Assembly (NCBI GenBank): GCA_015231435.1
Contig: JADGBN010000020.1
Location: forward strand, 1 to 34,864
DNA length: 34,864 bases
Source: Gammaproteobacteria bacterium
Lineage (GTDB): Bacteria > Pseudomonadota > Gammaproteobacteria > Thiohalomonadales > Thiohalomonadaceae
Reading direction: 5' to 3'
The number at the start of each line of letters is the position of its first letter. The stretch's first letter is position 1. Made by a program: the position numbers and the translations under genes. Below the pieces are notes generated by a model, which had not been told where the DNA came from, made no database searches, and saw only the letters and a program-made list of their open reading frames with translations. Below, one piece after another: positions 7,798 to 14,178 of the stretch.

Positions 7798-8157
7798 CTA
7801 CTGTGACAACTTTTCGACCAACTCAGGAGGAACAAAGGTCGCTGCTTTCTCCAGCGGCGTCACCCACATAATCCCCATTCCCGGGGTATCCAGCTTGGCT
7901 TCAAGGTAGATGCGCTCAAATATGCGGCCAACCTGCTCGCTGGAGACGAGAATATTAATCACCTCTTTCTCTGCCTCAATTGCCAACCCCAAAATACCCA
8001 GGCGCTCGCGCACGCCCCGCCCATAGGCATAATGCACAGTGGCCCCCTGCGCCCCCGCCATCTGCGCGGCTTTAACCAAATCGTCAGCCATCCCCCGCTG
8101 CACAACCGCAGTGATTAGCATAACGTCGGTTAGAACAACAATTTCACGGGTTTTCAC
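7798..8157 (-). CDS. PII-like signalling protein (first of a pair)
   Basis: This 119-residue protein has the PII core: TDVMLITAVVQRGMADDLVKAA, ATVHYAYGRGVRER, KEVINILVSSEQVGRIFERIYLEAKL and GMGIMWVTPLE. It differs clearly from its downstream neighbour, so the two are ancient paralogues, not a recent duplication. The T-loop is short (VRERLGILGLAIEA) and without the GlnB/GlnK tyrosine. It starts with GTG overlapping the stop of the DUF1538 gene by four bases (GTGA), with GGGAG upstream. That coupling implies stoichiometric production with the membrane protein. It might form homotrimers, or hetero-oligomers with the second PII; the sequence does not say. Confidence 0.82.
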   Translation of the reverse strand: MKTREIVVLTDVMLITAVVQRGMADDLVKAAQMAGAQGATVHYAYGRGVRERLGILGLAIEAEKEVINILVSSEQVGRIFERIYLEAKLDTPGMGIMWVTPLEKAATFVPPELVEKLSQ

Positions 8158-9908
8158 GACACGACTCCCTCAGCTTGTAGTGACTCATCATAGTGGCGAT
8201 GTTTGCGTGCCACCTTCCAGTTAATCCACAGGCCGGTCATGAGCACTGAAAGAATAGGGCAGATTGAGGCCATTGCCAAAACGCCGAACCCCTCTACCGC
8301 CGCCACTGCGTGGCCAAACCCCAACCCCATGGAGAGCACCAAAGGGACGGTTATCGGCCCCGTGGTCACGCCGGCACTATCCCAAGCGATATTCACAAAC
8401 TCTTCACTGGAGAAGATGGTTAACAACAACGCCAGCAGGTAGAGCGGCAACAGCAGCAGTGCAAGGTCAAGCGTAAAAACGATTTTCGCAACCCCTAGGG
8501 CAATCCCTACAGCAACCCCTAAAGAGACGGCAATCATTAAAAGGGAGCGACGAAACGCCCCGTTGGTCAAATTTTCCACCGTCAGCCCCAGGGCATTTAA
8601 CGCAGGTTCTGCCAAAGTAGCGCCAAAACCTAATATCCAGGCAAAACCGATTGCCAACGTCAAGCCAAAAAAGGTACCGTAAAGCGGCGAGCCCATCACC
8701 GCATCGATATTGGTAAACGCAGCCGGTACCAGCCCCCCTGACTGCCCTCCCAGCTTCGCCAAACCATAGGTCAGACCTAAATTAAAAATGATCATCCCCA
8801 GCACCGCAAGCGTAATTCCGTAAGCGATATAACCGGGGTTATGCAGCCGCTCTTTTAACAGCACCCGCAGCACCAAATAGAGAAATATCACCAGCGGTAC
8901 GATTGCCTGCAGTCCGGCGATAATCTCTAATGCCGGGGATAGCTCATACCACATCGGCAGCGTGGTTAGCTGTGAAACTCCCGCCGCCTCGGCAATAATC
9001 GCTTCCGGTGTCGTCACCAGTGATAACCACACGGCGAGAAGCTCCACACCTAATATGGGAAATATCGATGCTAGGGTGACAATACCGAATCCCGACAGGG
9101 ATGATTGCCCCTGCCCTGCTGCAGCGGCAATGCCAATACCTAACGCGAGCACCAGCGGTACAGTGACCGGCCCAGTGGTCACCGCGCCGCAGTCCCAGGC
9201 CAACCCCAGCACACTATTGAGATGGGGATCGAGCCACAAATAGAGGGAGAGCAGCAGCGTGGGAATAATGGTGATAAAGATAAGTGGTTTGAGACTCCAG
9301 CCATAGATAAAACGCAGGGTGCCGATAATCGCAGCCGCACCGACGCCAATACCGACCACCAGTACCAGTGTCCCGGCCCAACCATTCAGCAAGGCATAAA
9401 GATAGGGCGCATTCTCTACCTCGACAATCTGCCCTGCGGTGCGCAGTGCGCCAATCGCCGGTTCTGCAAAAGTGACGCCAATGCCAAGCAGAAAAACGAT
9501 TAACAACACCAGGCGTAGCGATGCCTTTGCCGGCAGGGTATTTCCCAGCACCTCGCCAAAGGGCATCAGACCAACCTTAAGCCCCTCCATAAAGAACATT
9601 AAACCGACAATAACCGCCACGATTCCGGCGCTAATCACCCACGACTCGGCAAGCCCCTGACGCAAAATAAGTAGCTGAAAAAGCACCAGATAGAGCGCCA
9701 ACGGCACCACTGCTTTTAACTGTTCAACAAAGCGCACCGTCACATAGGGTCGTATCATGCGATAGGCATCCAGACGGCGCAGCTGAATTTTAGGCGCCAG
9801 ATAGGTTGCATCGCCACTTACCGATGGCATTAGGCGATTAGCGCTAATGCACTTCTGGTGCAGCGTCACTTCATGCACAAAATCACCGAAACGGATCTCA
9901 ACGGCCAT
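8154..9908 (-). CDS. DUF1538 membrane protein with an internal duplication
   Basis: The 584-residue polytopic membrane protein is built from two homologous halves. Each half holds an AEPAI/AEPAL motif (148-152, 433-437) and a second signature, AWDCGAVTTGPVTVPLVL (237-254) in the first half and AWDSAGVTTGPITVPLVL (508-525) in the second. Each signature is followed by a Gly-rich helix and a conserved FG-I/V-x-x-x-ASI-x-PIL stretch. A soluble N-terminal ~60 residues precede the first membrane span. The paired-repeat design and conserved polar motifs inside membrane segments suggest a transporter or channel with inverted or parallel repeats, but the substrate is unknown. It heads an operon with two PII-like genes. 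There is no clear ribosome-binding site at the ATG. It is a DUF1538 family member by motif; any function is inference. Confidence 0.85.
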   Translation of the reverse strand: MAVEIRFGDFVHEVTLHQKCISANRLMPSVSGDATYLAPKIQLRRLDAYRMIRPYVTVRFVEQLKAVVPLALYLVLFQLLILRQGLAESWVISAGIVAVIVGLMFFMEGLKVGLMPFGEVLGNTLPAKASLRLVLLIVFLLGIGVTFAEPAIGALRTAGQIVEVENAPYLYALLNGWAGTLVLVVGIGVGAAAIIGTLRFIYGWSLKPLIFITIIPTLLLSLYLWLDPHLNSVLGLAWDCGAVTTGPVTVPLVLALGIGIAAAAGQGQSSLSGFGIVTLASIFPILGVELLAVWLSLVTTPEAIIAEAAGVSQLTTLPMWYELSPALEIIAGLQAIVPLVIFLYLVLRVLLKERLHNPGYIAYGITLAVLGMIIFNLGLTYGLAKLGGQSGGLVPAAFTNIDAVMGSPLYGTFFGLTLAIGFAWILGFGATLAEPALNALGLTVENLTNGAFRRSLLMIAVSLGVAVGIALGVAKIVFTLDLALLLLPLYLLALLLTIFSSEEFVNIAWDSAGVTTGPITVPLVLSMGLGFGHAVAAVEGFGVLAMASICPILSVLMTGLWINWKVARKHRHYDESLQAEGVVS

Positions 9909-12424: not shown

Positions 12425-12536
12425 GAAGCGCGTCTGAAGGTATGCGCCGTTTTTAGCCAATAACTGCTATGCTGTCGCTCCCTCGGGGCGTTGGCTCCGT
12501 TTCCCTCTCTTCACCAAATAAAGATAGGTCTCAGTC

Positions 12537-14009
12537 ATGCTGTCGCACCTGAAATTGATTACCACACTGTTGCCGCTCTGGCTCTTTACAACCGCCGCCC
12601 ATGCCGCTCTGCTTGACTATTTTAAGGATGAGCAGGGCGGTACGAAGTGGCAGTATGTGGCTAACTTCTCCAGCGGGGTACTCATTATCCTGCTCACGGT
12701 GGTCTTGGTTAACCTGCTCATTAGCCAGCGCCGCGCCTATCGTGCCAACCGTAAACTGGAGCGCATTCGTGAGGAGCTGGAGCTGCGGGTCACGCAGCGT
12801 ACCGCAACGCTAAACGAATATAACCATCTACTTAAGGATACCAATCGTCTGCTTGAGGGGGAGATTGCCGAGCACCGCGAAACCACCAGCCGTCTGCAAT
12901 CCTCAGAGGCCTATATTCACTGCATTCTCGAGTCGATGCCGATGATGCTAATTGGCCTTAATCAGCACAATACGATTACCCACTGGAATAAGCTCGCCGA
13001 ACAGTTCTCTGGGGTCGCCAGCACCACCGCCATGGGAAAAAATCTCTGGGAGGTCTACCCCGCAATTCCGCTGGAATCAAAAAAACTGACCGAGGTGGTG
13101 GACAAAGGCAAGCCGGTGACGATTAAACATTGTCAACGCGGCCAGTATTACTACGAAATTATTATCTATCCGCTGCGTGATACCCTTGAGGTCGGTGTGG
13201 TGCTGCTAATTGATGATGTCACGCAGCGTAAACTCTCAGAGAATCGCCTTATTCAGCGCGACAAGATGGCCTCCATGGGTGAACTTGCCTCCGCCATGGC
13301 GCACGATATTGAGCTGCCGCTAAAACATATTCTGAAAAATATTAACTCTGTTGCTGAATCCCTTGAACGCACGATGATGCAGCGATCCGGGGGGGAGAGT
13401 GAACTGCCGAATCTCACATTAAGTCAACAGCTGCTTGGCGAAGCGCAGCAGCAGGGCGAGCAGACCTTTGAGGTAATTAACAATCTGCTCGACTTTGCCC
13501 GCGAATTTGGTGACAACAAGCGCTTCACCCCGATTCCCGGCCTGCTCGAACGCACCCTGAAGCTGGCCAGAAATCTAATTGCCGCCCCCTCCGGTCTGCG
13601 CTTTCGCGATATCACCATCGAAAAACAGTATGAAGATGATCTGCCAAATGTCCCCTGCTATGTTTCGGAGCTGCAGCATGTCTTTCTCAGTCTCTTTCGC
13701 CATTCGCTAAGCGCCATGGGGCGGGTAGAGCGTGAGGGGTTTACCCCCCGTCTGCGTCTTGAACTGGCGTTCCACTACGATGTATTGTGGATTAAGGTAC
13801 AGCATAATGGCGTCGGCTTAAGTGGCGAGGAGCAGAACAATCTCTTTGAACCCTACTACGCCGACAGCATCGGGGCGACACCGCCAAGAGCAGGAGAACG
13901 CCTCTCGTTAAGCTATTTTATTATTACCGAACACCATAAAGGGCAGATTGCGGTCACCTCCGATATTAATATCGGCACCACCTTCCATCTGCAACTGCAA
14001 CTCTCCTGA
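12537..14009 (+). CDS. PAS histidine-kinase-like protein with degenerate ATP-binding domain
   Basis: The 490-residue protein has a signal-like N-terminus (1-23), one strong membrane helix (SGVLIILLTVVLVNLLI, ~46-62), a coiled coil (~70-120), a PAS domain (SEAYIHCILESMPMMLIGLN... to LLIDDVTQRK, ~122-232), and a kinase core. The H-box keeps its histidine (MASMGELASAMAHDIELPL, His256). The ATPase domain does not look active. In the N-box, where NxxxNA is expected, it reads HVFLSLFRHSLSAM, with His389-Ser390 replacing Asn-Ala. The G1 box reads QHNGVGL, so the Asp of DNGxG is His423. The G2 region reads GERLSLSYFI, not GxGLGL. The F-like LFEPYY and the final GTTFHLQL are kept. It is probably a pseudokinase or an acceptor for phosphate from another kinase. 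No response regulator is adjacent. Confidence 0.85.
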   Translation: MLSHLKLITTLLPLWLFTTAAHAALLDYFKDEQGGTKWQYVANFSSGVLIILLTVVLVNLLISQRRAYRANRKLERIREELELRVTQRTATLNEYNHLLKDTNRLLEGEIAEHRETTSRLQSSEAYIHCILESMPMMLIGLNQHNTITHWNKLAEQFSGVASTTAMGKNLWEVYPAIPLESKKLTEVVDKGKPVTIKHCQRGQYYYEIIIYPLRDTLEVGVVLLIDDVTQRKLSENRLIQRDKMASMGELASAMAHDIELPLKHILKNINSVAESLERTMMQRSGGESELPNLTLSQQLLGEAQQQGEQTFEVINNLLDFAREFGDNKRFTPIPGLLERTLKLARNLIAAPSGLRFRDITIEKQYEDDLPNVPCYVSELQHVFLSLFRHSLSAMGRVEREGFTPRLRLELAFHYDVLWIKVQHNGVGLSGEEQNNLFEPYYADSIGATPPRAGERLSLSYFIITEHHKGQIAVTSDINIGTTFHLQLQLS

Positions 14010-14101: not shown

Positions 14102-14178
14102 TGGCGCGCCCGACAGGACTCGAACCTGTTACCCTCGGCTTAGAAGGCCGATGCTCTATCCAGATGAGCTACGGGCGC
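14102..14178 (-). tRNA. tRNA-Arg (anticodon TCT)
   Basis: On the minus strand the 5' arm GCGCCCG pairs with CGGGCGC, followed by discriminator G and an encoded CCA. The D-arm (AGCTCATCTGGATAGAGC), the anticodon stem-loop with CTTCTAA at its centre, and the T-arm GTTCGAGTCC are all intact. Length is 77 bases including CCA. It decodes AGA/AGG. A terminator follows, and the ferredoxin gene ends about 100 bases upstream on the same strand. Confidence 0.97.

Follow-up and report, generated by a model that had tools for sequence, protein, structure and literature searches.

A conserved gammaproteobacterial family of putative pseudo-histidine kinases with substituted ATP-binding motifs

The locus and the encoded protein

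Within the window (the whole stretch of 34,864 nucleotides that was analysed), a gene for a histidine-kinase-like protein is preceded, on the same strand, by a GAF-HD-GYP gene and then a methyltransferase gene; downstream, and on the other strand, lie a tRNA-Arg gene and a ferredoxin-like gene (Table 1). A candidate terminator between the methyltransferase and kinase-like genes (12428-12447) was rejected, as such candidates occur at chance level and its fold is unexceptional. A genomic island at the tRNA-Arg gene was also rejected: a repeat of the tRNA end is absent from the window. In 18 of 18 related genomes whose coaD locus was read, coaD and the ferredoxin gene remain paired, with the HD-GYP and methyltransferase genes not nearby (although some of these stretches reach contig ends), and the arrangement seen at the window tRNA-Arg gene is lacking; the related coaD loci have no tRNA-Arg (tct) gene, and one of them (L126) has a tRNA-Arg (ccg) gene ~7 kb away. 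Elsewhere in the window (7798-9908, reverse strand), a 584-residue multi-pass membrane protein is followed by a small PII-like protein; judged by eye, the two are probably a pair.

Table 1. Coordinates in the window of the kinase-like gene, its encoded features and the adjacent tRNA gene
Feature	Position	Strand	Basis or remark
Pseudo-histidine-kinase gene	12537..14009	+	ORF of 490 aa, unbroken frame; orthologue family
Signal-peptide-like N-terminus, residues 1-23	12537..12605	+	Hydropathy peak 7-26; putative cleavage site placed by eye
Short conserved pre-membrane stretch, residues 24-44 (FKDEQGxTxWQYVANFSS-like)	12606..12668	+	Predicted to be on the periplasmic side
Transmembrane segment, residues 45-63	12669..12725	+	Hydropathy (hydrophobic ~44-63); model helix 38-103
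PAS domain, ~residues 126-228	12912..13220	+	Pfam PAS_4 131-232; model pLDDT ~64-88
HisKA/DHp domain, residues 247-322	13275..13502	+	Pfam HisKA sub-threshold; model helices 229-283 and 291-322
Phosphoacceptor His256 (CAC)	13302..13304	+	Family rows: His 25/30, Tyr 4, Asn 1
HATPase_c/CA domain	13668..14003	+	PF02518; CA-domain fold of the model
N-box Asn replaced by His389 (CAT)	13701..13703	+	Sequence; alignment
G1 box Asp replaced by His423 (CAT)	13803..13805	+	His in 30/30 family rows
G2 box replaced by GERLSL, residues 453-458; Arg455 at a G2 Gly column	13893..13910	+	Sequence; alignment
tRNA-Arg (tct) gene	14102-14178	-	Pseudokinase, methyltransferase and HD-GYP genes on its 3' side

The full-length reading frame and the motif placements proposed in an earlier, sequence-only reading of this DNA were borne out, as was its claim that the PAS domain and the membrane segment are intact: PAS_4 (35.8 bits) and HATPase_c (residues 378-489; 39.8 bits) both exceed their Pfam cut-offs, and there is one hydrophobic segment. 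HisKA falls below threshold (16.7 bits vs a cut-off of 26.9), no receiver domain was found with Pfam, and the best NCBIfam match is a partial one to AtoS (119 bits vs the AtoS cut-off of 646). Alignment to solved kinases (FixL chimeras, ZraS and CckA) puts the canonical H-box, N-box, G1 and G2 positions at His256, His389, His423 and GERLSL, respectively. The phosphoacceptor His of an active kinase is present, and the N-box Asn, the G1 Asp and GxGLGL are absent; the features of the histidine-kinase fold are retained, the DHp and CA domains being recognizable by both profile and fold. Since the N-box, G1 and G2 residues hold ATP and magnesium in GHKL kinases, their loss makes normal autophosphorylation very unlikely: judged from its sequence, the protein would, with high probability, have no normal ATP-dependent autophosphorylation activity.

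The short pre-membrane stretch is unique to the pseudokinase family, and residues 1-121, used as a query, had a single strong match in each of the 17 genomes. The N-terminus as a module used elsewhere was discarded as an idea, the other matches having E >= 1e-4 and looking like coiled coil.

The orthologue family and its motif substitutions

The family comprises 30 full or partial orthologues from Gammaproteobacteria, including that of the window, and the relatives are from marine bacteria; contig ends truncate three rows (L032, L046 and L052). Two close orthologues (70 and 62% identical) came from searching 56 related genomes at the protein level. Named genomes, searched by patterns plus tblastn, yielded 23 loci, 22 of which are family members at 43-70% identity; one of these, L031, repeats one of the two close orthologues, and the remaining locus, L053, was dropped as a distant kinase. 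Further members, in G354, G202, G062, G318, G393 and G707, came from profile searches. The scores are two-peaked: family members reach at least 609 bits, and everything else among the matches listed scores at most 344 bits. Named carrier strains include Pseudomaricurvus alcaniphilus and Marinobacterium nitratireducens. In the open-licence PMC literature, judged by title or abstract, we found no description of this pseudokinase family.

Motifs were counted by alignment in 29 rows, the thirtieth (L184) being read separately. At G1, a His is present in all 30; the column of the second G2 Gly holds Arg in 29 (Gly in L032), and GxGLGL occurs in none; the N-box residue is His in 26, with Asn in L043 and L044, Ser in L042 and Ala in L045 (non-Asn, therefore, in 28/30); and an Arg stands immediately ahead of the N-box position in 30/30. 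The peptide patterns used in the search included WIKVQHNG, such that the conservation of the G1 His in L031-L052 is partly ascertained. However, eight non-window members (G009, G055, G354, G202, G062, G318, G393 and G707) came from whole-protein or profile searches, and all of these have the G1 His; moreover, although the profile was built from family members, it would also have given a high score to any close relative whose G1 box was intact. The same substitutions persist among orthologues that are only 43-70% identical. The observation made in the sequence-only reading is thus right, and stronger than stated, as the substitutions are common to the orthologues: those in G1 and G2 are fixed, that in the N-box is nearly so, and an intact G1 or G2 is seen in none of them. 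The contrary evidence named in that reading, orthologues whose N and G1 boxes are both intact, was encountered only for the N-box residue, the two rows with an N-box Asn both being without the G1, G2 and phosphoacceptor residues.

A set of 24 control kinases is near-canonical at the same columns, and the substitutions of the window protein are, therefore, more than chance: the phosphoacceptor His, the N-box Asn and both G2 Gly columns are kept in 24/24, and the G1 Asp in 23/24 (Asn in L073). By inspection, the joint loss of N-box, G1 and G2 is absent from the 46 other HATPase_c matches read in the same genome, none of which has a G1 His (five have Asn and one Gly). This tells against a kinase that is still active through an unusual nucleotide site, as does the absence of the phosphoacceptor in 5/30 rows; we regard such activity as highly improbable, notwithstanding a CA fold with HATPase_c above its cut-off and four residues (the F-box Phe437, Pro439, Gly480 and His467) that are kept in every row of the conservation profile. 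Two further points run against a pseudokinase reading: single-motif changes are tolerated by some histidine kinases and GHKL proteins, G1 Asn being found in L073 and in the five same-genome proteins, and the retention of His256 in 25/30 fits a phosphorylation role kept by most members.

Two observations concern other proteins of the same genome. L156 (G000:C142:10750-11085), a frame of hybrid-kinase size (1543 aa), has Gly for the G1 Asp (RGSGIG) and an intact G2, and is possibly another kinase whose ATP site is damaged. In the HATPase_c proteins L172, L174, L175, L176 and L177, Asn replaces the G1 Asp; all but L177 continue as NxGxI/VP, and those four look like a subfamily.

The phosphoacceptor itself, described in the sequence-only reading as intact, is so in the window protein and dispensable in part of the family: it is Tyr in L034, L043, L044 and L045, and Asn in L184. 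This weakens, as a general function, the earlier suggestion that phosphate is accepted from elsewhere. According to such a relay, His256 would take phosphate from another kinase or a phosphorylated regulator and pass it on in the manner of an HPt protein, and the conservation in most members of His256, Asp257 and the flanking helix is in its favour. However, the five exceptions have kept the rest of the protein, and there is no receiver domain; since the phosphoacceptor is lost in 5/30, phosphate on this residue is not the common function, and the relay is improbable. A phosphatase route is also unlikely. The residue at H+4 (Thr or Asn) plays a role in phosphatase activity: it is Asn, Gln or Thr in 24/24 controls, and Leu, Ala, Ser, Val, Pro or Gly, hence neither Thr nor Asn, in 24/29 family rows.

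The G1 His (30/30), the Arg of the G2 column (29/30) and the Arg ahead of the N-box (30/30) are all more strongly conserved than the phosphoacceptor, from which it could be argued that the nucleotide pocket was not lost but refitted. The CA domain might then bind another ligand, a metal or a partner protein, and the protein would belong to a new type of sensor in which this domain handles input or output; we consider this rather unlikely.

Selection, fold and ancestry

Purifying selection on the degenerate CA domain is strong: dN/dS (NG86) is 0.027-0.162 in 14 of 15 pairs, dS being saturated in one, and for the CA domain (the last 150 codons) it is 0.029-0.104 in the 11 computable of 14 long-enough pairs. 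The conservation profile (calculated without the truncated rows L046 and L052, without L184, and without the near-copies L033, L039, L050 and L038) has its three most conserved stretches at residues 247-258 (the H-box helix), 378-389 (the N-box helix) and 414-425 (the G1 strand). Conservation is among the lowest in the stretch of the lid that, in active kinases, holds ATP (mean pairwise identity 0.25); when this is set against the conservation and dN/dS values, it follows that the CA domain has been kept but its ATP lid has not.

These data bear on whether the gene is a decaying kinase remnant. Its patchy presence, for example in 2/20 genomes of its own order, could be so read. However, no stops were found inside the matched frames of the orthologues, dN/dS is far below 1 even in the CA domain, and identical substitutions recur in divergent orthologues; the dN/dS values already refute decay, to which we assign a negligible chance. 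The sequence-only reading had argued as much from the full-length frame, and its conclusion holds. In a tree of 47 rows (IQ-TREE; without the truncated rows L046 and L052, and without L184), all 27 family rows fall into a single clade (100/100), which has a long stem (length 1.46). Given this and the selection on the CA domain, we take the genes to be a maintained family.

An AlphaFold2 model (23 sequences; mean pLDDT 70.7, pTM 0.47) has its helices and strands in the expected order. Fold searches with it return histidine kinases, active ones among them, including CckA and the NifL structure 9qq6. It matches DivL (4q20) with Z 18.8 over 142 residues (rmsd 2.0) and RetS (6dk7) with Z 18.1 over 199 residues (rmsd 5.8), the shared fold in neither case showing function; for the CA domain, the alignment has an rmsd of ~2 across ~142 residues.

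The sister kinases L091-L094 and L060 have the same TM-PAS-HisKA-HATPase layout and show 27-32% identity across most of the length, whereas their catalytic motifs are all intact (His, N-box Asn, DNG or DHG, and GTGLGLS); they show the kind of ancestor from which the pseudokinase family arose. All are orphan canonical kinases: for L091-L094, no response regulator was seen next door in the short stretches read.

Within the family, the window gene groups with L031 (from G055, of a different taxonomic family) and not with G009 of its own family (99/94). In other sets of genomes, the gene is present in 2/24, 1/11 and 1/3; candidates at family-level score occur in at least 6 of 369 genomes of the class and at least 2 of 398 of the phylum, in scans where four candidates per genome were scored and absence is not proof. 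The patchy presence and the grouping with L031 suggest either horizontal transfer or repeated loss, the two being inseparable here.

Gene neighbourhood, precedents and mode of action

No gene family around the pseudokinase is common to different genera. Porticoccus-type loci do share their surroundings (ribosomal-protein and rpoA-like genes, by eye), which is uninformative on function. The sequence-only reading had proposed that the protein might act with the HD-GYP protein encoded two genes upstream, and, in such a scheme, which is compatible with a pseudokinase, it would control that c-di-GMP phosphodiesterase. Among the 29 stretches fetched (L081 being a repeat of L031), an HD-GYP match is absent from 27 of the 28 other loci, including that of the 70% identical L031, and the window methyltransferase has a match near no other family member at E <= 1e-4; an operon with either gene was, therefore, rejected as a family trait. 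The one exception is in G009, the other carrier in the same taxonomic family. Here, a different HD-GYP gene (L075:7832-9620) lies directly upstream, and its 3' end overlaps the ATG of the orthologue (ATGACTAA), such that the two are possibly a translationally coupled pair. With 113 HD_5 matches in the 17 carrier genomes, ~0.03 HD-GYP genes would be expected within two genes upstream in the other 16 (a hand estimate) and one was seen, a comparison that was chosen post hoc; the overlap is suggestive. However, the two HD-GYP proteins differ in layout: that of the window has a GAF domain, whereas that of G009 has a hydrophobic stretch at its N-terminus and no GAF match. Moreover, Trp523 of CckA, which contacts c-di-GMP, aligns to Gln470, a position that varies across the family (Q/E/H/D/Y/N), and the protein is in this respect unlike a CA domain of the c-di-GMP-binding CckA type. 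Overall, a c-di-GMP partnership is distinctly unlikely, and the idea stays for the G009 lineage only. The core of the earlier interpretation, a pseudokinase not in decay, is, thus, right, and its suggestions of an HD-GYP link and of phosphate acceptance are weak.

A paralogous sister kinase was also rejected as the general heterodimer partner: a canonical, full-architecture kinase is the next-best match (E <= 1e-25) in only 4 of 17 carriers, and the window genome is not one of them.

We consider it likely that the protein is a maintained, membrane-anchored pseudo-histidine kinase of PAS-DHp-CA layout, with a kinase-like fold, that acts through conformation and protein contact. To the narrower claim, that its main action is to bind a response regulator or a further kinase, we give even chances. 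It counts against this reading that neither synteny nor paralogy pointed to a partner. A signal at the PAS domain or the membrane would shift the coiled coil and the DHp helices, with the short pre-membrane stretch and the PAS domain together controlling the output. The protein might then bind a response regulator or another sensor kinase through the conserved face of the DHp domain, either keeping it sequestered or toggling its state between kinase and phosphatase; the CA domain would serve as a structural or docking module, and the partner would be encoded elsewhere in the genome.

There are precedents for such a mode of action, and the family would resemble them in manner rather than by membership. 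DivL of Caulobacter is described in PMC4211667 and PMC5361649 as a pseudo-histidine kinase with no kinase or phosphatase activity, which senses DivK~P and controls CckA; it has Tyr in place of the phosphoacceptor His and keeps its N, G1, F and G2 boxes (PMC4211667). The window protein shares with it the PAS-DHp-CA fold, with the close model match to 4q20, and four relatives have Tyr at the phosphoacceptor; it differs in that His256 is present and the N, G1 and G2 boxes are lost, most members keep the His, and the class of bacteria is another. DivL is the precedent for the reversal to contact-based action. RetS of Pseudomonas aeruginosa, a sensor kinase that acts by binding the kinase GacS (PMC12189002), is matched in fold (6dk7); it is a hybrid kinase, whereas no receiver domain was found in the window protein. 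NifL of Azotobacter combines PAS with a histidine-kinase-like core, and is, according to PMC8063818, kinase-inactive, acting by direct protein contact and encoded in an operon with NifA. The PAS and core arrangement and the fold match (9qq6) are alike, but no transcription factor gene is adjacent to the window gene, its neighbours being those listed above. Finally, an account in PMC9491836 has a ChrS variant of Corynebacterium glutamicum exerting its effect via another kinase, with a non-functional CA domain and no need of the phosphoacceptor. It is similar in these respects; however, it is a laboratory-evolved frameshift with a known paralogous partner, whereas the family described here is natural and conserved. 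The ChrS variant and NifL show that the core of a kinase can work in the absence of chemistry of its own.

Few bacterial pseudo-histidine kinases have been studied, according to PMC5361649, and DivL, the best-known of them, retains its ATP boxes. The present natural family reverses this pattern: it has lost the ATP boxes, and most members still have the phosphoacceptor, which a few have secondarily lost. A kinase fold is maintained by selection without its catalytic residues in many Gammaproteobacteria, and the role of such a fold without ATP chemistry is testable in named strains. The Tyr at the phosphoacceptor of L034 and L043-L045 echoes that of DivL in another class of bacteria.
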